Positions 23,621 to 62,050 of a stretch of DNA of 64,000 nt are shown piece by piece (the first letter of the stretch is position 1; each line of letters opens with the position of its first letter). The notes under the pieces are model-generated. The model ran no database searches. It saw nothing but the letters and a program-made list of their open reading frames with translations, and was not told the origin of the DNA. The position numbers and the translations under genes were made by a program. The DNA is from Stackebrandtia nassauensis DSM 44728 (GTDB taxonomy: Bacteria; Actinomycetota; Actinomycetes; Mycobacteriales; Micromonosporaceae): positions 558,001 to 622,000 of the forward strand of contig NC_013947.1 of assembly GCF_000024545.1 (NCBI RefSeq). The letters are read 5' to 3'.

Positions 23621-24223
23621 TTAGATCCAGAACCCGCCGAGGCTGCAGATGCATACCAGAACCAACAGCGCCAGCGGAACGGCCATCAGGCCGATCATCA
23701 GTCCCATGCCGTTGTACTGCTGCGGCGACGGGCCGAGCGAGCCCGGCACGAAGAACGCGACCAGCGGGCTCTTGTACTCCAGCGGCACGTTCTGCCCGGG
23801 TCCGACGGTGACCTGCGTCTCGGCCTCGCCGAAGTCCCACAGATAGGGCGTGACCACCTTGACGTGGTGGGTGCCCGGCACCACCGGGAAGGTGTTGGCC
23901 TTCCACTCCGTCCCCTGCATCTGCTGGCCGTCGATGAAGATCTTCGGCTTGAAGAAGGAGAGGATGAAGTTGAGGACGAAGTACTGCGCGTCGACCGTGA
24001 TCCACGCCTGCCCGCCGCCTCCCGGCTGCTGGGGCGGCTGCCCGTAGTCGGGCGAGGAGTACCCCGGCTGCTGCTGGCCGTAGCCAGGCTGCTGGGGCTG
24101 CCCGTACGCGGGCTGTTGCGGCTGTTGCCCGTACCCGGGTTGCTGCTGCCCGTAGCCGGGCTGTTGAGGTTGTTGTCCGTATCCCGGCTGTTGCCCGTAA
24201 CCAGGCTGCTGCGGATATGTCAT
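23621..24223 (-). CDS. Membrane protein with N-terminal Pro-Gly-Tyr-Gln low-complexity repeats
   Basis: A 200-residue protein. Residues 1-~70 are tandem repeats of the type QQPGYGQQP/PQQPGYG, with almost only P, G, Y and Q. The remainder has a compact beta-like region (WITVDAQYFVLNF, FKPKIFIDGQQM, GTHHVKVVTPYLWDFG) and one or two C-terminal hydrophobic helices (FFVPGS..., GLMIGLMAVPLALLVLVCICSLGGFWI). Similar P/Q/Y-rich N-termini occur on small actinobacterial membrane proteins, presumably cytoplasmic and protein-binding. Function unknown. It is divergent from the sigma-factor gene at 24433. Confidence 0.8.
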   Translation of the reverse strand: MTYPQQPGYGQQPGYGQQPQQPGYGQQQPGYGQQPQQPAYGQPQQPGYGQQQPGYSSPDYGQPPQQPGGGGQAWITVDAQYFVLNFILSFFKPKIFIDGQQMQGTEWKANTFPVVPGTHHVKVVTPYLWDFGEAETQVTVGPGQNVPLEYKSPLVAFFVPGSLGPSPQQYNGMGLMIGLMAVPLALLVLVCICSLGGFWI

Positions 24224-51321: not shown

Positions 51322-52527
51322 GTGACCTTCAGTAATGTCCCGCGCGCGGGACGGGCGGCGGCCACCTTCGCCGTCGGACTCGCGGCCGGAGCGGCAGCCG
51401 GCTACGCCCTCAACGGGCGTCGTCGCACCCTGGAACCCGCCTCCGACGAGGAGTTCTCGCGCACCCAGGTCGGCGCCTGGCACAAGGTCTTCGAGGCGCT
51501 GCGCACCGGCGTGTGCGTCGTCGACGCCGACAACCAGGTCACCTACGCCAACACCGGCGCCCGGGCCCTCGGTGTCGACGCCGAGACCGAACTCGAACCC
51601 GCCTCGCTGCGCAGCCTCGCCGAACACGTCCGCGCCACCGGCGCCCCGCGCCAGGTCGAACTGGAACTCAACCAGGGCGGCGACCCCACCGCCGTGCGCG
51701 TCGACGTCGCCCCGCTGCCCGACGGCCACGTCGCCGTCGAACTGACCGACATCTCCGAACTGCACCGGGTGGAACGGGTGCGGCGCGACTTCGTCGCCAA
51801 CGTCGGCCACGAACTCAAGACCCCGGTCGGGGCGCTGCAACTGCTCGCCGAGGCCCTGGCCGACGCCGTGGACGACCCGGCCGCCGCCGCCCGCTTCACC
51901 ACCCGGATCCAGCACGAGTCGGCCCGCATGTCGCGGCTGGTGTCCGAACTGCTGGAACTGTCGCGGCTACAGGGCGCCGAACCCATGCCCGCCCCCGTCA
52001 CCGTGTGGATCGACCGGGTCGTCAACGAGGCCGTCGACAGGGGACGCACCGCCGCCTCGGCCAAGGACATCACCATCAACCGCACCGGCCGCCGTCGGCT
52101 CGCGGTGTCCGGCAGCGAGAACCAGCTGGCCACCGCGCTGGGAAACCTGGTCGGCAACGCCATCGCGTACTCGCCGGAAGGCACCTCCGTGACCGTGGAC
52201 ACCACGGTCAAAGACGACTCGGTGCTCATCGCCGTCACCGACGAGGGCATCGGTATCGACCCGTCCGAACAACACCGCATCTTCGAACGTTTCTACCGCT
52301 CCGACCCGGCCCGGTCCCGCGCCACCGGCGGTACCGGCCTTGGCCTGGCCATTGTCAAACACATCGCCGGAAACCACGGCGGCAGGGTTGACGTGTCCAG
52401 TATGCCGGGAAATGGGGCAACGTTCACCCTGACGTTGCCTTCGGTAACGGCTGACGCCGACGAAGCGGAACTGAGCCCGGGTGAAATCGACACACTTACT
52501 ACGCACATCGAGGAAGGTCGACAGTGA
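51322..52527 (+). CDS. senX3: Sensor histidine kinase SenX3/PhoR-like (phosphate sensing)
   Basis: A 401-residue kinase. One short N-terminal membrane helix (~11-30), a PAS-type domain (~50-140), HisKA with the phospho-His in NVGHELKTPVGAL (~163), and HATPase boxes ENQLATALGNLVGNAIAYS and DEGIGIDPSEQHRIFERFYRSD, GTGLGLAIVKHIAGNHGG. The single-helix PAS architecture and the coupled OmpR-type regulator match mycobacterial SenX3. In actinobacteria this system senses phosphate via the Pst transporter/PhoU. Stop and next start overlap (GTGA). Confidence 0.9.
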   Translation: MTFSNVPRAGRAAATFAVGLAAGAAAGYALNGRRRTLEPASDEEFSRTQVGAWHKVFEALRTGVCVVDADNQVTYANTGARALGVDAETELEPASLRSLAEHVRATGAPRQVELELNQGGDPTAVRVDVAPLPDGHVAVELTDISELHRVERVRRDFVANVGHELKTPVGALQLLAEALADAVDDPAAAARFTTRIQHESARMSRLVSELLELSRLQGAEPMPAPVTVWIDRVVNEAVDRGRTAASAKDITINRTGRRRLAVSGSENQLATALGNLVGNAIAYSPEGTSVTVDTTVKDDSVLIAVTDEGIGIDPSEQHRIFERFYRSDPARSRATGGTGLGLAIVKHIAGNHGGRVDVSSMPGNGATFTLTLPSVTADADEAELSPGEIDTLTTHIEEGRQ

Positions 52528-53204
52528 CTCGCGTACTCGTAGTCGAAGACGAGGAATCGTTCTCCGACGCGCTTTCGTACATGCTGCGCAAGGAGGGCTT
52601 CGAAGTGGCGGTCGCCGCCACCGGAAACGAGGCTCTCAAGGAATATGAGAAGGCCGGAGCCGACATCGTCCTGCTGGACCTGATGCTGCCGGAGAAGTCG
52701 GGAACCGAGGTGTGCCGCGAACTACGCACCACGTCCAATGTGCCCATCATCATGGTGACCGCGCGCGACAGCGAGGTCGACAAGGTCGTGGGGCTGGAGA
52801 TCGGCGCCGACGACTACATCACCAAGCCCTACTCGCCCCGCGAGCTCGTCGCCCGGATCCGCGCGGTGCTGCGCCGCAACGCCGAACCCACCGACCCGAT
52901 GGTGACGGTGCTGGAATCCGGCCCGGTGCGCATGGACGTCGACCGGCACGTGGTGTCGGTGGGCGGCGCCGAGATCCCGTTGCCGCTCAAGGAGTTCGAG
53001 CTGCTCGAGATGTTCCTGCGCAACTCCGGCCGAGTGCTGACCCGCGGCCAGCTCATCGACCGCGTCTGGGGCGCCGACTACGTCGGCGACACCAAGACCC
53101 TCGACGTGCACGTGAAACGGCTGCGCTCCAAGATCGAGACCGAGCCCGGTCGTCCCCGCCACCTCGTGACCGTTCGGGGCCTGGGCTACAAGTTCGAGTC
53201 CTAG
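52524..53204 (+). CDS. regX3: OmpR/PhoB-type response regulator RegX3-like
   Basis: A 226-residue response regulator: receiver with E8/D9, phospho-Asp D52 (LLDLMLPEKSG), Lys in DDYITKPY, and a winged-helix C-terminus (LKEFELLEMFLRNSGRVLTRGQLIDRVWG, VHVKRLRSKIE, VRGLGYKF). All catalytic residues are intact. It is coupled to senX3 by a 4-nt overlap. It would activate phosphate-starvation genes; the phoX gene at 20.9-23 kb with its PHO-box-like element is a likely target. Confidence 0.93.
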   Translation: MTRVLVVEDEESFSDALSYMLRKEGFEVAVAATGNEALKEYEKAGADIVLLDLMLPEKSGTEVCRELRTTSNVPIIMVTARDSEVDKVVGLEIGADDYITKPYSPRELVARIRAVLRRNAEPTDPMVTVLESGPVRMDVDRHVVSVGGAEIPLPLKEFELLEMFLRNSGRVLTRGQLIDRVWGADYVGDTKTLDVHVKRLRSKIETEPGRPRHLVTVRGLGYKFES

Positions 53205-53337
53205 GCGCCGAAGCGGAGGCGGAGATCGACCTGCCGCGTGGGGGGAGTCGCGGTCGTCCGCAGGGATGACAACGCCCGCCGGAAAGTCGTCTCCGAGGCG
53301 GAGAGTTTTCGGCCGTCGCGCTTCTAATGTCGTCTTC

Positions 53338-53367
53338 ATGACGACCTTGGGAGCATCCGATGCTTGA
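53338..53367 (+). CDS. Possible nine-codon leaderless upstream ORF before ABC gene
   Basis: TAATGT (53325-53330) is followed by 7 nt and ATG 53338, which opens the frame MTTLGASDA and stops at TGA 53365-53367, overlapping the start of the ABC ATPase gene (53360) in another frame. The ABC gene's own GGGAG (53349-53353) lies inside it. If translated, the peptide would couple initiation of the ABC gene. Not proven. Confidence 0.3.
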   Translation: MTTLGASDA

Positions 53368-54232
53368 GATAAGGAACCTGCGCAAGCGGTTCGGCGAGAA
53401 GACCGCCCTCGATGACGTCTCGCTGACCGTCGAACCGGGGCAGGTGTTCGGCTTCGTCGGCGCCAACGGAGCCGGGAAGACCACGACCATGCGCATCGCC
53501 ATGGGCGTGCTCATCGCCGACTCCGGGGACGTGCTGTGGGACGGCGAGCCGATGGGTCACGCGCAGCGGCTGCGCACCGGATACATGCCCGAGGAACGCG
53601 GGCTCTACCCCAAGATGAAGATCGGCGAACAGCTGGCCTACTTCGCCGAACTGCATGGTGAGACCCCCGGCGGCTCGAAGAAGGCCGCCGCGACCTGGCT
53701 GGAACGACTGGGACTGTCCGACCGCTCCGGCGACTTCGTCCAGGACCTGTCGCTGGGCAACCAGCAGCGGGTGCAGCTGGCGGTGTCGCTCGTGCACGAC
53801 CCGAAACTGCTGATTCTGGACGAACCGTTCTCCGGCCTCGACCCGATCGCCGTCGACACGATGGCCACCGTCCTGTCCGAACGCAGCGCCGCCGGGGTCC
53901 CGGTCATCTTCTCCAGCCACCAGCTGGACCTCGTGGAACGCCTCAGCGACTCGGTGGGCATCATCGCCGCCGGGAACATCGTCGCGTCCGGCTCGGTCGA
54001 CGACCTGCGCCGCCGCGGCAACCGCAAACTGCGCGTCTCCATCGACGGGGCCGCCCCCACCTGGGCCGACGCCCTGCCCGGCGAAGTGGCCAACGTGGAC
54101 GAGGGCGAGTGGGTCATCGACTCCGGCGACGACCAGAAAGTACTCGCCGCGGCCATGGCCGCCGGACGGGTCACACGATTCGGCTTCGACGAGCCCAGCC
54201 TCGTCGACATCTTCCGGGAGACGGTGTCATGA
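53360..54232 (+). CDS. ABC transporter ATP-binding protein (NatA-like)
   Basis: A 290-residue ATPase of the ABC-2 type. Walker A GANGAGKTTT (~36), signature LSLGNQQR, Walker B LLILDEPFSGLDP and switch His in SSHQLDLVERL are present; the C-terminal DUF4162 region is typical of NatA-like exporter ATPases. Partner permease is the next gene (4-nt overlap ATGA). Export of antibiotic, lipid or sodium is possible; substrate unknown. Confidence 0.9.
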   Translation: MLEIRNLRKRFGEKTALDDVSLTVEPGQVFGFVGANGAGKTTTMRIAMGVLIADSGDVLWDGEPMGHAQRLRTGYMPEERGLYPKMKIGEQLAYFAELHGETPGGSKKAAATWLERLGLSDRSGDFVQDLSLGNQQRVQLAVSLVHDPKLLILDEPFSGLDPIAVDTMATVLSERSAAGVPVIFSSHQLDLVERLSDSVGIIAAGNIVASGSVDDLRRRGNRKLRVSIDGAAPTWADALPGEVANVDEGEWVIDSGDDQKVLAAAMAAGRVTRFGFDEPSLVDIFRETVS

Positions 54233-55392
54233 AGGGACTGTGGCTGGTAGCCAGGCGCGAGATCCTGGTGCGCGGAAAGTCCAAGAGCTACCTCATCGGC
54301 CTGCTGGCCAGCGCCGTCCTGGTCGTCGTGGTGTCGCTGCTGCCGACCTTCCTCGGCGGCGACGACACCTACAAGATCGCGGTGACCGGCACCGACGCCC
54401 CGGTGCTGGCCGAGTCGGTGCCCGAGGTCGGCGAGGCCCACGGCATGAAGATCGAAGCCGACGAGGTCGACGACGCCGCCGCGGCCAAGGCCGCCATCAG
54501 CGACGACAAGGCCGACATCGCGATCGTGGACAACAAGACCGTCATCGCCGACGGCGAACCCGACCAGGGCCTGCTGACCGTCGTGGAAGCCGTCCACCAG
54601 CGGGTGATCGCCGAACGCCAGCTCGTCGACGCGGGGGCCGACCCCGACAAGGTCAGCGACGCGATGAAGGTCGACACGCTCAAGACCGAGCAGGTCAACG
54701 GCGAGGACAACACCGCCCGCCAGGTCATCGGGTACTTCCTGACGATCATCCTGTTCTTCATGGTCATGATGCCGACCATGTACGTGGCCATGGGCGTGGT
54801 GGAGGAGAAGAGCAGCCGCATCGTGGAGATCCTGCTGTCCTCGCTGCGAACCTGGCAACTGCTGGGCGGCAAGATCCTGGGCCTGGGCGTCCTGGGCTTC
54901 CTCAACCTCGCGGTACCGGCGGGGGTCGGGCTCATCGCGGCCACCGCGACCGGCGCCATCGACTACCTGCCCAGCGGCATGGGCGTCACCATCGTCACCG
55001 CGTTGGGCTGGTGGGTGCTGGGCTTCGCCTTCTACGCGGCGATGGCCGGATCCCTGGGCTCCCTGGTCTCGCGGCAGGAGGACATCAACTCCGCCATCGG
55101 CCCGATGACGATGCTCATGGTGGCCAGCTACGTCGTCACCTCCATCTACGTCTGGGACCCGACGGCGACGGTGTCGAAGGTGCTGTCGTTCATCCCACCC
55201 TTCTCGATGCTGATGATGCCGGTACGAGCGGCGGTCAACGACGCGGCACCGTGGGAGCAACTGCTGTCGGCGGCGGTGCTGGCGGCAGCGGCGGTGGGCA
55301 TGCTCAGCATCGGCGCCACCATCTACAAGCGCAGCGTGATGCGCATAGGCAGCAAGGTGAAGCTGACCGAGATCTTTACCAAGAGCGCCTGA
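54229..55392 (+). CDS. ABC-2 type permease (NatB-like)
   Basis: A 387-residue permease with one N-terminal helix (~22-42), a large extracellular loop rich in Asp/Glu/Ala (~45-165) and five to six C-terminal helices (~170-365), the arrangement of NatB/YhaP-type exporters. The motif MGVVEEKSSRIVEILLSSL is the conserved ABC-2 coupling helix. It forms the exporter with the preceding ATPase. Confidence 0.88.
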   Translation: MKGLWLVARREILVRGKSKSYLIGLLASAVLVVVVSLLPTFLGGDDTYKIAVTGTDAPVLAESVPEVGEAHGMKIEADEVDDAAAAKAAISDDKADIAIVDNKTVIADGEPDQGLLTVVEAVHQRVIAERQLVDAGADPDKVSDAMKVDTLKTEQVNGEDNTARQVIGYFLTIILFFMVMMPTMYVAMGVVEEKSSRIVEILLSSLRTWQLLGGKILGLGVLGFLNLAVPAGVGLIAATATGAIDYLPSGMGVTIVTALGWWVLGFAFYAAMAGSLGSLVSRQEDINSAIGPMTMLMVASYVVTSIYVWDPTATVSKVLSFIPPFSMLMMPVRAAVNDAAPWEQLLSAAVLAAAAVGMLSIGATIYKRSVMRIGSKVKLTEIFTKSA

Positions 55393-55404
55393 GAGCGCGG
55401 AAAC

Positions 55405-55440
55405 GAGGTCGCCCCGGGTGTGCTGGCCCGGGGCGACCTC
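55405..55440 (+). terminator. Terminator hairpin after ABC permease
   Basis: GAGGTCGCCCCGGG (55405-55418) pairs perfectly with 55427-55440 (14-bp stem, 8-nt loop), 12 nt after the stop. Confidence 0.85.
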
Positions 55441-55773
55441 CCCGTTGCCTGAAGGGCACCCCGACCGCCCCGTCGGAGCGCCCAGCCGCAGCGTACTCCC
55501 GCCCGGCCACCACCGCACCCGCCAAAGCCCCGCCCCGCGCGGCAAAGCGCCGCCCGCCCAAAGCCCCGCGCTGCAAAGCCTTGCGCGGCAAAGCCCCGCC
55601 CCGCGCGGCCGAGCTCGCGCCGTCCCCGCTGGCTGCCCCAGGCTCCTTGGCCTTCGGCCAACGAAGCGCGTCCCCGCACTCGCTAGCTGGCCCAGGCTCC
55701 TTGGCCTTCGGCCAAACGAAGCTCGCCCCGCCGGATCATCCGACGGGGCGAGCTTCGTGTTTGTCTACAGTGG
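55441..55773. repeat. Repeat-rich GC intergenic block
   Basis: Between the ABC terminator and the disordered-protein gene. It contains several imperfect copies of GCAAAGCCCCGC / CCGCGCGGC (55530-55610), then an exact 25-base direct repeat (CCCAGGCTCCTTGGCC plus TTCGGCCAA; 55637-55661 and 55691-55715, period 54), each copy holding the small hairpin TTGGCC-TTC-GGCCAA. No coding potential is supported. Confidence 0.65.
55716..55758 (-). terminator. Large hairpin terminator after disordered-protein gene
   Basis: A 15-bp perfect stem (55716-55730 with 55744-55758) whose 13-nt loop itself contains CGGAT-C-ATCCG. It lies 16 nt beyond the minus-strand stop at 55774. Confidence 0.8.
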
Positions 55774-58700
55774 CTAACTGTCCGCGGGCGGCGGCCACGC
55801 GCTCTCGTTCTCCGGTTCGGGCGCGCCGCCGTAGACCTGCGCGACCGGCGTCGGCAACTGCGCGGGCAGGTCACCGGCCGACAGCAACTGCGCCGACGGC
55901 ACACTGGCCACGCCCTTGGCCGCCCCCACCGGCTCAGCGGCCGACGGTTCGGCGCTGGCAGCCGCCGGGGACACCGGCTCAGCCGCGGCCTGCTGGCCTG
56001 ACTCCGGCTGCGAGGACTGCTCCGAGCCGCCCTCCAGCCACGGTTCGCCGAAGGCGTCCCACGCCGAGCCCGCCTGCTGGCCGTCCCCGGACGAGCTCGC
56101 CTGCTGGCCGTTGTCGTCGGGACGGTCTGCCGCCTCGGACGGCCGCTGGTCATCGGCGGGCTGAGCCTCGTGCGACTCGACCTCACCAGCCACAGCGGAC
56201 GGTTGGCCCTCGTCGGCACCGTCGCGACCGGACGACTCGTCGTCCCCGAACGCGCTCCAGCTGCCGCCGGACGACTGCTCACCAGCCGCAGCCGGTTCGC
56301 TGTCGCCGTGCGCCGACTCGGACGGACGTCCGTCGTCGGCCGGTTCGGCCTGCCGCTCCTCGGCACGCTCGCCGTCGAACGCGTTCCACGTCGACTCCGA
56401 CTGCCGCGCCGGTTCGCCGTCGTCAGCCGCCGAGCCGGACTGGCTCTCAGCCGCCGCGTCGGAACTGTGCCCAGCGTCGGCGTCACGGTCGCCCTCGGCG
56501 AAGGCGTTCCACGTCTGTCCAGCCTGGAACGACGACTCGCCGGACGACCGCTCGTCGCTGCCGGACGAGTCGCCAGTCGCCGCTTCGGCAGCGTGGTCGT
56601 CCCGCTCGGAGCCCGAGGGCTGGTCGGCGGCGTTGCTCTCGCCCGCGGCGAACGCGTTCCAGGTCGAGCCGGAATGCAGGTCCGCCACCGGCTGGCTGTC
56701 GCGCTGCTCGTCCGGCCCCGCCTCCTGCGGGGCCTCCGCCCGAGCCTCCCAGTCGCCGATGTCGGGTGCCTCGGTGACATTGGATTCGGGAGCGCTCTGC
56801 ACCTCGCCGGCACGGTAGGTCTGGCCGTCGAAGCGGCGGCCGACCGGCACGTTGTCGTCGTCCTGCACCACGAGATTCGGCACCGAGACGCTGGCCCGCG
56901 CCGGAACCGAGGACGCGTCGTCGTCCCCGGCCGGAGCGTCGGCCGAACCCCTCACCGCTTCGGTCTCGCCGCTTTCGCCGGACTCCGCCGCTTCCCCGGT
57001 CGCCGCCGGAGCGGCCCGGTTCTCGTCGGCCGCTTCCGCGCCATCGCGGTCACGGTCGGCCTCGGCCTTGTCGGTCTGCTGCGGCGCCGGGGCGTCGTCA
57101 TCGTCATCGTCGTCCTCGAAGTCGCCCATGTCGACGTCGGCCAGGTCGGCCATCGCCTTGGCGTCCTCGGCGGACAGTTCGGCGTCGCCGCCCGGCCCGG
57201 CCGGGGTGGCCATGCCCGCCCACAGCGCGGCGCCCTCGGCGGGCGGCGGGGGCGGCTGGTCGTCGGCGGCTTCGGGAGCCGGAGGCGGCGCGGGGGCCGG
57301 TTCCGGCTGTGCCACCGGAGCCTCGGCGGCGGGAGCGACGGCCTCGGGTGCCGGCGGCACCGAAGCCGAGCCGGACGCGACCGGTTCGGCGACGCGCGGC
57401 CAGGACTCGGGAGCCTGCGACTCGGGTGCCGCGGGCGGGTACTCGACCCGCGCCTGAGCCACCGGCGCCTCCGGGGCGGGCGGCATGGGCGGCGGCGCGT
57501 ACTGCGAGCTCGCGTCGGGAGCGGCCTCGCCGGTCAGCGGAGCCGACGCACTGGCGCCGGGCATCGAGAAGCCCTGCGCGGCAGGCGGTTCAGGCTCGCC
57601 GGTCAACGGCGCGGGAGCGCTCGTCCCCGGCATGGAAAAACCCTGCGGGGCACCCGCGTTGTCCTCGGGCGCACTCGTCGCGGGCATGGAGAAGCCCTGT
57701 GGAGCGCCCGCGTTGTCGTCGGGTGCGCTGGCACCCGGCACCGAGAAGCCCTGGGCCGCGTGGGGGTCCGGCGGGCTGGGAGCCGGGGGTGGCTCGGCCG
57801 GTGGCGGCGGGTAAGCCGGCGGCGGTTCCTCGGCCGCGGGTGGCGGTGGCGGGGCCTCCCCGCCGGACGACGGCGCGGCATCCTCGATCCGGCGACGCGG
57901 ACGGCCCATGATCCCGGTTCCCGGGTCGTCGGACGGCACCGCGAACGGCACGGCGGCCGACGGAGCCACCGGCGGCGCCGACTCGGGCGGGGACGGCACG
58001 TCGGCCGGAGGTTCCTGAACCGGCGGCTCACCGGGCGGGGCGAAGCTGTCGGAAGCCGGTGGCGGCGGGGGAGACGCGGGCGGCGTACCCCAGGCGCTCG
58101 ACGGCTCGGCGGGCGGTGGCGGAGGCTGCTGCCCCCACTGCCCCTGCGGCTGCGGCGCACCCGGCGGCTGACCACCGGGCTGGTTCCACTGCGGAGCGCC
58201 GGGCGGTGGCGGTGGCGGCTGTTGCCCCCACTGCTGGTTACCCGGAGCCTGCGGCGGTGGAGGCGGGGGCTGCTGGCCCCACTGGGCCGGACCGCCCGAG
58301 GACGGCGCACCGGAAACCGGTGCTCCCGGAGGTGGCGGTTGCTGCCCCCACTGAGCCGGTCCACCCGAAGAAGGCGCGGCCGAAACCGGTGCCCCGGGAG
58401 GAGGCTGCTGCCCCCACTGGGATGGCGCCCCGGAAACGGGCGCTCCCTGGGGCTGCGGCGGACCCCACTGAGCCGGTCCACCCGAAGAAGGCGCCCCAGA
58501 GACCGGCGCCCCAGGCGGAGGCTGCTGCCCCCACTGCGGTCCACCGGCGGGCGGCGCGGACGTCGGCGGTGCGGGCGGAGGCGGCGGACCGCCAGCCTGT
58601 CCCCACTGTGGCCCGCCCGCTGGCGGACCGGAAGCCGGTGGCGCGGACGTCGGCGGTGACGGCGGCGGGGGAGGACCCCCGGCCGGACCCCACTGCTGCG

Positions 58701-59217
58701 GCGGACCCGAGGCGGGCGCGCCGGAAACCGGCGGGCCACCCCACTGCGGCCCGCTCGCGGGCGGACCCGAGACCGGACCGGGCTGGCCCCACTGCTGTCC
58801 ACCCGGAGGCGGAGGCGGGGCGCCGCCGGGCGGCGCCCACGGCTGGTTCGGCTGCTGCTGCGGCGACTGCCAGCCACCACCCGCGGGCGGTGGCGGTGGC
58901 GGCGGAGCCCCACCGGGCGTCCACCCGGTACTGGTGTGCGGCTCCCCACCGGGAGGCGGCGTGTAGTTCGACGGCGGCGACTGTGGCGACTGCTGCGGCT
59001 GCCACGGCGCGGGCTGGTCGGGAGCCTGCGGCGCAGGCGGCATCACGCCGGGCTGCTGCGGCGGGGCCGACGGCGGCGGATACTGGCCACCGCCCTGCGG
59101 GGGCGCGTACTGCTGCTGCCCGCCTGCGGGCGGAGCCAGGGGCACACCACACTGCGGGCACCGTGGCGTGCCAGGTGCGACGCGCGTGCCACAGGCCACG
59201 CAACTGTTGTTGTCCAT
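55774..59217 (-). CDS. Giant disordered zinc-ribbon protein with repeated W-x-A-F motifs
   Basis: A 1147-residue protein. Residues 1-25 form a zinc ribbon (Cys6/Cys9...Cys20/Cys23). Residues ~30-460 are Pro/Gly/Gln rich with many near-repeats (QWGQQPPPP, GAPVSGAPSSGGPAQWG). Four QGFS[VM]P[GA]xS repeats start at Q489, Q507, Q525 and Q548. A poly-Asp run lies near 700. The acidic/Ser-rich C-terminal half has five short motifs with W at 853, 903, 944, 987 and 1053 (TWNAFAAGE, TWNAFAEGD, TWNAFDGE, SWSAFGDDE, AWDAFGEPW). No membrane helix or enzyme domain. The small zinc ribbon suggests protein or nucleic-acid contact; the rest looks like a multivalent scaffold. Function unknown. Confidence 0.85.
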   Translation of the reverse strand: MDNNSCVACGTRVAPGTPRCPQCGVPLAPPAGGQQQYAPPQGGGQYPPPSAPPQQPGVMPPAPQAPDQPAPWQPQQSPQSPPSNYTPPPGGEPHTSTGWTPGGAPPPPPPPAGGGWQSPQQQPNQPWAPPGGAPPPPPGGQQWGQPGPVSGPPASGPQWGGPPVSGAPASGPPQQWGPAGGPPPPPSPPTSAPPASGPPAGGPQWGQAGGPPPPPAPPTSAPPAGGPQWGQQPPPGAPVSGAPSSGGPAQWGPPQPQGAPVSGAPSQWGQQPPPGAPVSAAPSSGGPAQWGQQPPPPGAPVSGAPSSGGPAQWGQQPPPPPPQAPGNQQWGQQPPPPPPGAPQWNQPGGQPPGAPQPQGQWGQQPPPPPAEPSSAWGTPPASPPPPPASDSFAPPGEPPVQEPPADVPSPPESAPPVAPSAAVPFAVPSDDPGTGIMGRPRRRIEDAAPSSGGEAPPPPPAAEEPPPAYPPPPAEPPPAPSPPDPHAAQGFSVPGASAPDDNAGAPQGFSMPATSAPEDNAGAPQGFSMPGTSAPAPLTGEPEPPAAQGFSMPGASASAPLTGEAAPDASSQYAPPPMPPAPEAPVAQARVEYPPAAPESQAPESWPRVAEPVASGSASVPPAPEAVAPAAEAPVAQPEPAPAPPPAPEAADDQPPPPPAEGAALWAGMATPAGPGGDAELSAEDAKAMADLADVDMGDFEDDDDDDDAPAPQQTDKAEADRDRDGAEAADENRAAPAATGEAAESGESGETEAVRGSADAPAGDDDASSVPARASVSVPNLVVQDDDNVPVGRRFDGQTYRAGEVQSAPESNVTEAPDIGDWEARAEAPQEAGPDEQRDSQPVADLHSGSTWNAFAAGESNAADQPSGSERDDHAAEAATGDSSGSDERSSGESSFQAGQTWNAFAEGDRDADAGHSSDAAAESQSGSAADDGEPARQSESTWNAFDGERAEERQAEPADDGRPSESAHGDSEPAAAGEQSSGGSWSAFGDDESSGRDGADEGQPSAVAGEVESHEAQPADDQRPSEAADRPDDNGQQASSSGDGQQAGSAWDAFGEPWLEGGSEQSSQPESGQQAAAEPVSPAAASAEPSAAEPVGAAKGVASVPSAQLLSAGDLPAQLPTPVAQVYGGAPEPENESAWPPPADS

Positions 59218-59404
59218 TCGCTTGGCTCCCAGCCCAGGTGTTTCGGTTTACGGGGGCGCGACGTCCGCGCGACGGCCGTTCCACGCACCGCCGAATGAAC
59301 TCCGCTGCCCTATAACGGTGCCATACCCTTGCAAGTAACTCACAGGCGCGCACGGTTGGCCGGGACTCGGGTAAACGGACGATCTCGCCCTGTTAGGACC
59401 AGGC

Positions 59405-60703
59405 CTAACCGCGCCACGGCGTGGGCGTCGGCGTAGGCGCGTCCCCGCCACCGGGACCCGAAGTCGTCTCCTCGTCGGAGCCGGGAACCGGCGGGGACTC
59501 CGGCTTCGTCGCCGGGGTCTCGCTCGGCGAATCGGCCCGCTTCTTCTCCTTCTTGTCCTTCTTCTCCTTGGACTCGGCGGGCTTGGTGTCGACGGCCTGC
59601 ACCACCCGGTGGGCGCCGACGAACTCGTCGAACCACACCGGCGCGACCCTGACCACATCCCCGGGACGCGGGGCGTGCACCATCTGGCCGTCCCCGATGT
59701 ACATGCCGACGTGGTAGACCGAGGTCCAGTCCTCGGGTACGTCACCGTAGAAGATGAGGTCGCCGGGCAGCAGCTTCTCCATCGGCACCCGCGCCTGCGA
59801 GGTGTCGCGGAACTGCTGCTTCGCGATCCGCGGCAGCCGGACCCCCGGCTGGCCGTAGGACGTCTGGGTCAGGCCGGAACAGTCGTAGGTGTTGGGCCCC
59901 TCGTCACCCCACACATAGGACTTACCGGTCTGCTTGAGCGCGAACTTCACGGCCTGCTTGGCCTCCTCGGCGGCCTCGGCGCCGTCGATGTCGATGCTGA
60001 TCTGGCCGGTCTCGCGCTCGTTGTTCGCCTCGGCCTGCTGTTCCTCCAGCGTGATGGCCTCGCGGTTGCGCTCGATGAGCTTCTCGAGCGACTTGGTCTT
60101 CTTGTCCAGCTTCTTCGACAGGTCCTTGTGCTCGCCCTCGGCGATCGCCTCGGTCGCCTCGGCGGCGTCCAGGGTCGCCTTGGCGACGCCCGCGTCCGAC
60201 CGGGCGTCCTCGGCCTCTTCCATGATCGCGTTCTGGTTGAGGTTGAGCAGTTCCGGATTGACCTCGAACAGGTCCTCGAACTTGTCGGTCAGGCCGGGAA
60301 TCTCGGCGGCCTTCTCCTGGTACGCGGCCGCGGCCATGTCGGCGGCCAACTCCTCGGTCGCTTTGGCCTCGCCGTCCAGGTCCCGCCAGTTCAGCCGACT
60401 CAGCGAGGTCTCGTCCTTGCGCAGCTTCAGCTGCTCCTCGGCGTCGGTGGTGCGTTCCCCCAGGTCGGCGAGGCTGCGGGTCTGCTCGGCGATCTTGTCG
60501 GCGTAGGGTCCGCGGCTGATGCCCGGCCCCGAAATCGGCACCTCGCCGGGCTCCTGGTCGCCCGCGGGCGCACCACCCTCGGGACGCGAACCATCGTCGG
60601 GCACCACGGTGACCGGATCCGCCAGCGCGGGGACGGGCGTGGAGATACCAAGCAGTACCGCGGTTCCGAGACACATGACAACACGGGACGGGGTGGTCTT
60701 CAT
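59405..60703 (-). CDS. Secreted NlpC/P60 peptidoglycan endopeptidase (RipA-like)
   Basis: A 432-residue secreted hydrolase. Sec signal peptide (~1-28), a long alpha-helical/coiled-coil region (~65-235, Glu/Ala/Lys/Asp rich), then the NlpC/P60 domain: Cys275 in YDCSGLTQ, His in YHVGMYIG (~330), third residue in HAPRPGD. The C-terminal tail (~380-432) is Lys/Glu then Pro/Thr rich. Coiled coil plus P60 is the layout of mycobacterial RipA-type cell-division hydrolases, where the coiled coil inhibits the enzyme. AAGG precedes the ATG. Confidence 0.9.
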   Translation of the reverse strand: MKTTPSRVVMCLGTAVLLGISTPVPALADPVTVVPDDGSRPEGGAPAGDQEPGEVPISGPGISRGPYADKIAEQTRSLADLGERTTDAEEQLKLRKDETSLSRLNWRDLDGEAKATEELAADMAAAAYQEKAAEIPGLTDKFEDLFEVNPELLNLNQNAIMEEAEDARSDAGVAKATLDAAEATEAIAEGEHKDLSKKLDKKTKSLEKLIERNREAITLEEQQAEANNERETGQISIDIDGAEAAEEAKQAVKFALKQTGKSYVWGDEGPNTYDCSGLTQTSYGQPGVRLPRIAKQQFRDTSQARVPMEKLLPGDLIFYGDVPEDWTSVYHVGMYIGDGQMVHAPRPGDVVRVAPVWFDEFVGAHRVVQAVDTKPAESKEKKDKKEKKRADSPSETPATKPESPPVPGSDEETTSGPGGGDAPTPTPTPWRG

Positions 60704-60877: not shown

Positions 60878-62050
60878 ATGACGGCCGAGGCATTCAAGGC
60901 AGACATCGAAGAGAAGGTGGCCAACGGCCAGCGCTTGAGCTATGAGGACGGAGTCGCGCTGTACGAGTGCGACGACCTCAACTGGCTCGGCCGCATGGCC
61001 CACCAGGTGCGCACCGACAAGAACGGTGAGCGCGTCATGTTCAACATCAACCGGCACCTCAACCTCACCAACGTCTGCTCGGCCTCGTGCGCGTACTGCT
61101 CGTTCCAGCGCAAGCCCGGCGAGAAGGACGCCTACACGATGCGGGTGGAGGAGGCCGTCCAACTCGCCAAGCAGATGGAGGGCGAGAAGCTCACCGAGCT
61201 CCACATCGTCAACGGCCTGCACCCGACGCTGCCGTGGCGCTACTACCCGCGCGTCCTGAAGGAACTGAAGGCGGCGCTGCCGGGCGTCAGCCTCAAGGCG
61301 TTCACCGCCACCGAGGTGCAGTGGTTCGAGAAGATCTCGGGTCTGTCGGCCTCCGACATCCTGGACGAACTCATCGAGGCGGGCCTGGCGTCGCTGACCG
61401 GCGGCGGCGCCGAGATCTTCGACTGGGAGGTCCGCCAGCACATCGTCGACCACGACTGCCACTGGGAGGACTGGTCCCGGATCCACAAGCTGGCCCACGA
61501 GAAGGGCCTGCGCACCCCGGCGACCATGCTGTACGGCCACATCGAGGAGCGCCGCCACCGCGTCGACCACGTGATGCGGCTGCGCGAGATGCAGGACGAG
61601 ACCGGCGGTTTCGTCGTGTTCATCCCGCTGCGGTACCAGCACGACTTCGTCGACGCCAAGGACGGCAAGATCCGCAACCGGATCCAGGCCCAGACCACGA
61701 TGGCCTCGGCCGCCGAGAGCCTGCGCACCTTCGCGGTGTCGCGGCTGATGCTGGACAACTTCGACCACGTCAAGTGCTTCTGGGTCATGCACGGCCTGGA
61801 CGTCGCGCAGCTGTCCCTCAACTACGGCGCCGACGACCTGGACGGCTCGGTGGTGGAGTACAAGATCACCCACGACGCCGACTCCTACGGCACCCCCAAC
61901 ACGATGCACCGCGAGGACCTGCTGGACCTGATCCGCGACGCCGGATTCACCCCCGTGGAGCGCAACACCCGCTACGAGGTCGTGCACACCTACGACCCGC
62001 CGCAGTCGCTGGCGGAGCGGCGCGCCGAACCGCAGGACGTCTGGGCGTAG
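60878..62050 (+). CDS. mqnE: Aminofutalosine synthase MqnE
   Basis: A 390-residue radical-SAM enzyme of the futalosine menaquinone pathway, which joins chorismate-derived 3-carboxyvinyloxybenzoate to SAM. The [4Fe-4S] motif is C67-x3-C71-x2-C74 (CSASCAYC); other MqnE segments are HIVNGLHPTLPWRYYPRVL, GGGAEIFDWEVR and FIPLRYQHDF. GGTGAG precedes the ATG at 60878. It is followed by two small membrane-protein genes with no gap. No other mqn gene is in the window. Confidence 0.92.
   Translation: MTAEAFKADIEEKVANGQRLSYEDGVALYECDDLNWLGRMAHQVRTDKNGERVMFNINRHLNLTNVCSASCAYCSFQRKPGEKDAYTMRVEEAVQLAKQMEGEKLTELHIVNGLHPTLPWRYYPRVLKELKAALPGVSLKAFTATEVQWFEKISGLSASDILDELIEAGLASLTGGGAEIFDWEVRQHIVDHDCHWEDWSRIHKLAHEKGLRTPATMLYGHIEERRHRVDHVMRLREMQDETGGFVVFIPLRYQHDFVDAKDGKIRNRIQAQTTMASAAESLRTFAVSRLMLDNFDHVKCFWVMHGLDVAQLSLNYGADDLDGSVVEYKITHDADSYGTPNTMHREDLLDLIRDAGFTPVERNTRYEVVHTYDPPQSLAERRAEPQDVWA

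Follow-up and report, generated by a model that had tools for sequence, protein, structure and literature searches.

We describe a gene whose product, P0001, appears to be a soluble representative, with amplified motifs, of an undescribed and fast-evolving family of disordered scaffolds. In Micromonosporaceae (as we take the taxonomic family to be called in the GTDB sense) genes of this kind usually stand next to that of a coiled-coil, Rip-like peptidoglycan endopeptidase. The P0001 gene lies at 55774..59217 in a 64,000-nucleotide stretch of Stackebrandtia nassauensis DSM 44728 (NC_013947.1, positions 558,001 to 622,000), here called the window, in whose coordinates all features are given; they are on the minus strand unless stated otherwise. 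P0001 has more copies of a W-x-A-F motif than any homologue counted, namely five, which by comparison with relatives appears to be a lineage-specific amplification. Our preferred explanation, held tentatively and at somewhat less than an even chance, is that P0001 acts as a disordered scaffold for docking, in concert with the neighbouring hydrolase, at wall sites of growth or division, its five copies being peculiar to its lineage. The anatomy is firmly supported; topology, partner, localisation, function and the direction of the evolutionary changes are inferred. Literature searches, the broad ones judged by their top matches, turned up no paper describing P0001 or its family, and no Pfam or NCBIfam model scored above its cut-off (one plus seven proteins against Pfam, one plus five against NCBIfam), which may be why the family has no name.

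The open reading frame (ORF) runs from an ATG at 59217 to 55774 and is open throughout, encoding 1147 residues: a CxxC-x10-CxxC ribbon at the N terminus, then a half rich in Pro and Gln and a half rich in acidic residues, with five W-x-A-F motifs; acidic residues prevail and basic ones are few. An earlier sequence-only reading of the window had drawn exactly this outline, the residue numbers of the motifs included, and had called the protein disordered. AlphaFold2 agrees: the mean predicted local distance difference test score (pLDDT) is 40 and 960 of the 1147 residues fall below 50 (from an alignment of three rows), the better-scored parts being about residues 1-30 (block means 68-78) and a helix at 683-692 (58-64). 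The Pro/Gln/Gly-rich region, residues 34-400 (58018..59118), carries QWGQQPP and PVSGAP repeats, and proline makes up 28-40 of every 100 residues across residues 1-400. No signal peptide is seen by eye (N terminus MDNNSCVACG; no predictor was used), nor is there a transmembrane helix, the 19-residue hydropathy mean peaking at 0.87.

The motifs, at W853, W903, W944, W987 and W1053, all fit [TSA]W[NSD]AF and stand 50, 41, 43 and 66 residues apart, W to W. By motif scan the first three read TWNAF (56650..56661, 56500..56511 and 56377..56388); the fourth reads SWSAF (56248..56259), and the fifth, WDAFGEPWL (56035..56061), is the counterpart of a widespread SPWxxFAxPW. When residues 780-1147 were shuffled 100,000 times with composition preserved, 99,757 shuffles had no motif, 243 had one and none had two or more.

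A search for related loci with the whole of P0001 returned 17 matches by pattern, none of them a confirmed relative; relatives were obtained instead with the neighbouring NlpC/P60 protein (P0002) as query. Of the 101 genomes in the GTDB family that includes the window's organism, 97 have a relative of P0002 at an expectation value (E) of 1e-30 or better. From 83 fetched stretches we counted 76 loci, the window's own among them, and set seven aside: L055-L059 (other families, without such a protein after nlpC) and L126-L127 (fragments). At 53 of the 76 loci (set A) the next gene after nlpC passed a pattern for the ribbon and/or for a C-terminal tail described below; 22 failed it and L033 had no downstream DNA. 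A further member, L079, was recognised by eye, while L039, L052 and L104 resemble cut or broken members and are uncounted. Separately, a tail-profile scan of named genomes gave 124 relatives, from Micromonospora, Actinoplanes, Plantactinospora, Phytohabitans, Pilimelia, Couchioplanes, Virgisporangium, Salinispora and kin; 80 were kept, and 65 of these yielded a segment longer than 250 residues (set B, rich in Micromonospora and Actinoplanes). Set B was recruited by its tail, so tail-less members cannot appear there, and the two sets overlap in species. L034 and L040 run off their contigs, and L079 holds a masked stretch.

Among set A proteins the pattern W-x-[AGSED]-F occurs once in 28 of 53, twice in four and not at all in 20 (one of which, L034, ends at a contig end), and the window alone has five. 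These 41 copies in 33 carriers compare with 2.8 copies and 2.7 carriers in shuffled sequences. In set B the pattern is present in 14 of 65 proteins. The strict W-x-A-F is found at least once in 29 of 53 and 13 of 65, its typical form being SPW[ASD]AFAxPW; in L038 and L079 the comparable position reads WASLAEPF. Recurrence in homologues of very different sequence fits the suggestion of the sequence-only reading that this is a docking-type motif; the multivalency it proposed is no property of the family as a whole.

Relatives within the genus (L031, L032 and L126) have two motifs each, PW[DN]AFG and SPWxxFAQPWLE; in a fourth, G002 (L034), the contig ends before the motif region. The window's motifs 4 and 5 were matched to this pair by alignment, which is uncertain in such sequence (MAFFT placed motif 4 on the first motif of L031 and L032), and motifs 1-3 would therefore be the extra copies. 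On a quickly built hydrolase tree, 15 of whose 50 inner branches are open, W-x-A-F changes nine times and occurs to either side of a midpoint that is itself weakly placed; this distribution suits an old motif lost repeatedly, although change counts on a tree without a root cannot tell gain from loss.

Rather than by selection for multivalency, the copies may have spread by ordinary expansion in a low-complexity gene, as parts of a loosely constrained spacer. The spacers after motifs 3 and 4 do have a duplicated segment in common, their alignment score being equalled in 1 of 300 shuffles, the gene holds several further tandem repeats, and motif number varies among relatives. For the other 14 of the 15 segment pairs the score was equalled in 22 to 255 of 300 shuffles; these spacers are no longer detectably alike, yet W, A and F are kept in all five copies, and the same motif is retained in distant homologues. 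We consider such drift somewhat unlikely. The spacers had been read earlier as unconserved, which holds for most of them and fails for the duplicated two.

Most of the members found differ from P0001 in ending in a membrane tail, E-x-[ST]-G-S-L-T-G-H-I-L followed by a short linker and one hydrophobic helix at the C terminus. In set A the tail pattern is present in 36 of 53 proteins and the C-terminal hydrophobic helix in 40, the larger count arising because the pattern missed L080, L081, L123 and L125. A query with the GSLTGHIL tail had matches at E 0.001 or better in 39 of 61 family genomes (position unchecked per genome), and in an order-wide sample of 81 genomes the tail matched 12, these being seven of nine from the window's family and five from two other families, where the matches are weak (E 1e-5 to 1e-3). 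The rows of profile A1 were picked by the tail pattern, and its invariant columns are partly so by construction. Since most tails have basic residues ahead of the helix, and a signal peptide was not seen, the long part of the tailed members is probably cytoplasmic, along the inner membrane face. The ribbon changes three times on the hydrolase tree and the tail pattern four, the latter count being inflated by the four pattern misses and by L040.

Three observations concern individual tailed copies. At L048 (G036), from another family of the order, a tail-bearing disordered protein adjoins nlpC, and the scaffold family may thus be older than the window's GTDB family. An in-frame TAG lies within the tail-encoding stretch at G018:C15:56947-57141, a copy that may be broken or mis-assembled. 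In the genome of L104 and L152 the W-x-A-F part and the tail stand in separate open frames, and may be frame-shifted or mis-read.

P0001 belongs to a clade without the tail. Hydropathy peak means are 0.40-1.25 in eleven tail-less proteins of set A, against at least 2.65 in 40 others (L034 and L040 set aside), and a twelfth, L079, has by eye no hydrophobic segment at its C-terminal end. That the tail is encoded elsewhere in the window's genome was excluded, the own-genome search with the GSLTGHIL query being empty. What these proteins have is a tryptophan-plus-helix element, in P0001 at residues 664-700 (57118..57228; ALWAGM...ELSAEDAKAMADLADVD, followed by an Asp run), which contains the AlphaFold2 helix 683-692. 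A tryptophan with the acidic, helix-like ELSAEDxxxLADLxxDV occurs in 11 of the 12 tail-less proteins (ten by pattern and L078 by eye; L036 is without it) and in none of the 40 tailed others, the pattern having been written from the tail-less sequences and the 40 checked by pattern alone; a stricter version was found in none of the 65 set B proteins. The tail-less state and the helix element probably trace to one event, the contrast of 11 of 12 with 0 of 40 carrying no statistical test. The large cytoplasmic scaffold of the sequence-only reading is in need of qualification, 40 of 53 proteins having a C-terminal hydrophobic helix that the window's clade is without; the feature it picked out is real and its type was sensibly judged, with further conserved elements lying elsewhere in P0001.

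Among these is a module of about 35 residues, RASVPG...VYRAG, present twice in P0001: ASVSVPN...QTYRAGEV (56797..56898, E 1.8e-9) and GVASVPS...AQVYGGAP (55813..55917, E 5.9e-9), both scored with a profile (A2) made from by-eye readings of family members, with these copies among its own rows. Its two half-motifs occur in 39 and 45 of the 53 set A proteins, against 5.7 and 3.3 when shuffled, and in 58 and 59 of the 65 set B proteins, against 8.1 and 3.1; a loose regular expression for the whole module found only 9 of 53 and 22 of 65. Over five genomes the module profile reached E below 1e-6 in the scaffold protein only, twice each in the window's genome, G004 and G023 and once in G051, whose second match had E 0.002; as the matched copies are rows of the profile, the informative part is the lack of other strong matches among the best 150 candidates of each genome, out of 166-414. 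A profile search of the PDB with the module gave two matches, at E 0.82 and 3.1. An LWAG-type tryptophan element is found in 27 of 53 set A and 26 of 65 set B proteins.

The N-terminal zinc ribbon spans residues 6-24 (C6-x2-C9-x10-C20-x2-C23; 59146..59202). Its Pfam scores stay under the gathering cut-offs (Zn_ribbon_3, PF13248, E 0.009 and 15.9 bits against 27; PF13240, 15 bits against 25); the four-cysteine pattern is intact regardless, the cysteines are invariant across the three-row genus alignment, and 21 of the 53 set A proteins, P0001 counted, have it close to the N terminus, the other 32 being without it. The ribbon pattern noted from sequence is upheld, though sub-threshold in Pfam. 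Between the ribbon and the motifs lie five F-[SA]-x-P repeats found by pattern scan, starting at residues 424, 490, 508, 526 and 549 (57559..57948); shuffling of P0001 gives a mean of 0.14. At least four F-[SGA]-x-P repeats occur in 7 of the 20 other ribbon proteins (L031 with 5, L032 with 8, L035 with 4, L038 with 6, L043 with 8, L080 with 7 and L081 with 6), while the remaining ribbon proteins have 0-2; L079 has 12, and L092, which is without a ribbon, has 7. Eight relatives (L043, L080, L081, L099, L119, L122, L123 and L125) combine the ribbon pattern with the C-terminal hydrophobic helix, which suggests that the ancestor had both.

Lack of a transmembrane helix, aromatic motifs repeated within acidic disorder and F-x-x-P as a second repeated motif are what one would expect if P0001 were a free cytoplasmic condensate scaffold, its five W-x-A-F motifs crosslinking one oligomeric enzyme in the manner of the Rubisco-condensing linkers and its synteny with nlpC being an inherited neighbourhood. 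We regard this as unlikely: homologues hold 0, 1, 2 or 5 copies, and crosslinking by W-x-A-F is not the conserved function because relatives with one or none keep the protein; C-terminal helices are found in most family proteins, and the synteny with nlpC is strong.

That neighbouring gene (59405..60703) encodes P0002, a 432-residue coiled-coil NlpC/P60 peptidoglycan endopeptidase of Rip-like type (Pfam 74.7 bits, E 6.5e-21), and P0001 is encoded directly downstream of it. The gene had been placed upstream on the same strand, correctly, at a distance of 188 nt that is in fact 187 nt. AlphaFold2 predicts a coiled-coil hairpin (residues 66-133/157-232) ahead of the NlpC/P60 domain (mean pLDDT 74), an architecture like that of RipC and RipA; Cys275 and His331 are invariant in 29 rows. 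The best NCBIfam model is RipC (NF038345), at 88 bits against a cut-off of 425, and P0002 is not a RipC by this measure. Its top Foldseek match is Corynebacterium Cg1735 (8aud, E 3.7e-9), FtsEX-RipC (8idc) ranks 13th (E 8.6e-8), and the RipA coiled coil of SteB-RipA (9hmx) is matched weakly by P0002 (E 0.095) and at E 8.4e-5 by a profile of 29 hydrolases. The pairing is common: a family protein follows nlpC at 53 of 76 loci by pattern, and at L079 by eye. Of the 80 kept loci of the tail scan, 20 had too little upstream DNA to be assessed, and 56 of the other 60 have a same-strand nlpC relative no more than 2.5 kb upstream, which sustains the link to the NlpC/P60 gene proposed earlier. In 9 of the 29 loci compared, a DEAD-box helicase (cluster c7) is encoded on the same strand, either past the scaffold gene or, if that gene is absent, past nlpC, and one might suppose that ribbon and low-complexity half bind RNA with this helicase as the functional neighbour, which is very improbable given that the helicase does not adjoin in the window, L031 or L032, that P0001 is acidic with few basic residues and that 32 of 53 family proteins are without the ribbon pattern.

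Coiled-coil NlpC/P60 hydrolases are autoinhibited and governed by membrane partners such as FtsEX and SteAB, according to two papers (PMC6705760, PMC10694151), and by analogy a scaffold for a Rip-like hydrolase would be plausible rather than proven. In the docking-scaffold explanation that we prefer, the C-terminal tail of most members, GSLTGHIL with one transmembrane helix, would hold their long disordered part at the inner membrane face, where it probably gathers cytoplasmic partners through W-x-A-F, F-x-x-P, LWAG and the VP...VYRAG module, and in some members the zinc ribbon. The gathering would take place where the neighbouring exported hydrolase acts, during growth or as cells separate. 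Within the window's clade, the tail would have given way to the tryptophan-plus-helix element, recruitment then probably passing through a membrane or divisome partner, and in the window's own lineage the docking motif may have multiplied from two to five, which would raise avidity for one putative folded partner. A more specific version, that P0001 is a dedicated adaptor of the Rip-like hydrolase whose tail was swapped for the tryptophan-plus-helix docking element and whose W-x-A-F then multiplied five-fold to give a soluble multivalent organiser of wall remodelling, we find doubtful.

Several points weigh against a scaffold coupled to the hydrolase. The hydrolase is exported and the scaffold is predicted to be cytoplasmic, and direct contact would therefore be impossible without a tail or a membrane partner. 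At L042, L045, L049 and L054 the next recognised same-strand gene after nlpC is the DEAD-box helicase, so the gene pair is not obligatory; this arrangement suggests that the scaffold gene was gained or lost between the two. Synteny can in any case persist without a functional link. SteA is encoded elsewhere in all seven genomes tested (the window's and six relatives), and from SteA alone no gap in the Rip pathway needs filling. The fit of P0002 to Cg1735 is loose (TM score 0.34, root-mean-square deviation 13.2), only the order of parts agreeing, and most other top Foldseek matches of P0002 are catalytic domains alone. In G013 the module profile had no significant match within the scaffold, the best one, at 0.0066, being in a different ORF. 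Finally, W-x-[AGSED]-F is absent by pattern from 20 of 53 set A and 51 of 65 set B proteins (at least three of the 65 being cut by contig ends), and the motif is to that extent dispensable; homologues without the motifs were what the sequence-only reading had named as counting against it, and in part they exist.

If the docking-scaffold explanation is right, a wall-hydrolase gene pair would have, in these filamentous actinomycetes, a cytoplasmic side so far without a name, made of short motifs and not of folded domains. The family also provides a natural series, with 0, 1, 2 or 5 motif copies and with the membrane tail present or absent, for comparing avidity and tethering directly.

Around the gene pair, a radical S-adenosylmethionine (SAM) gene on the plus strand at 60878..62050, judged from its translation and presumably mqnE-like, is the divergent neighbour, and its cluster (c0) is present in 23 of the 29 loci compared. 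Scanning of 59150-59500 and 55390-55820 revealed no sigma-70-type promoter and three terminator-like sites, all on the plus strand. On the other side, a sensor-kinase-like gene, a response regulator, an ABC ATPase and an ABC-2-type permease (named by eye; 51322-55392, plus strand) converge on the scaffold gene; these four clusters recur in the L031 and L032 stretches and none was found in the other 26 compared, some of these being short. A further gene whose N terminus is repetitive (MTYPQQPGYGQQPGYGQQPQQPGYGQQ...), at 23621-24223, encodes a different Q/P/G/Y-rich low-complexity protein.

Among known systems, the carboxysome and pyrenoid linkers CsoS2, CcmM and EPYC1 carry repeated short motifs in disorder. 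P0001 resembles them in this, by general description and with their sequences uncompared, and differs in that the number of W-x-A-F motifs is not conserved in its family. Actinoplanes missouriensis, the source of SspA, presumably belongs to the same family as the window's organism. SspA is likewise an actinomycete protein predicted to be disordered and linked to the cell envelope, and it has, in addition to a signal peptide, a sorting signal for sortase (PMC13293333). A sortase-anchored surface protein of this kind was rejected for P0001, which has no signal peptide by eye and no segment above a mean hydropathy of 0.87; the tails of its relatives are without the strongly basic end. P0001 is not SteA, as NF040608 found no match in it in the NCBIfam search at E 0.05 and the genome's SteA was located elsewhere, and nothing resembling the outer domain of SteB was seen in it (SteB itself was not searched). 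P0002, far under the RipC cut-off, nonetheless shares the coiled-coil hairpin and NlpC/P60 domain of RipC and RipA, with His343 at the Cys-His-His spacing of RipC, and the likeness of P0001 to SteA and SteB of Corynebacterium would lie in their being membrane-associated partners of just such a coiled-coil NlpC/P60 hydrolase.

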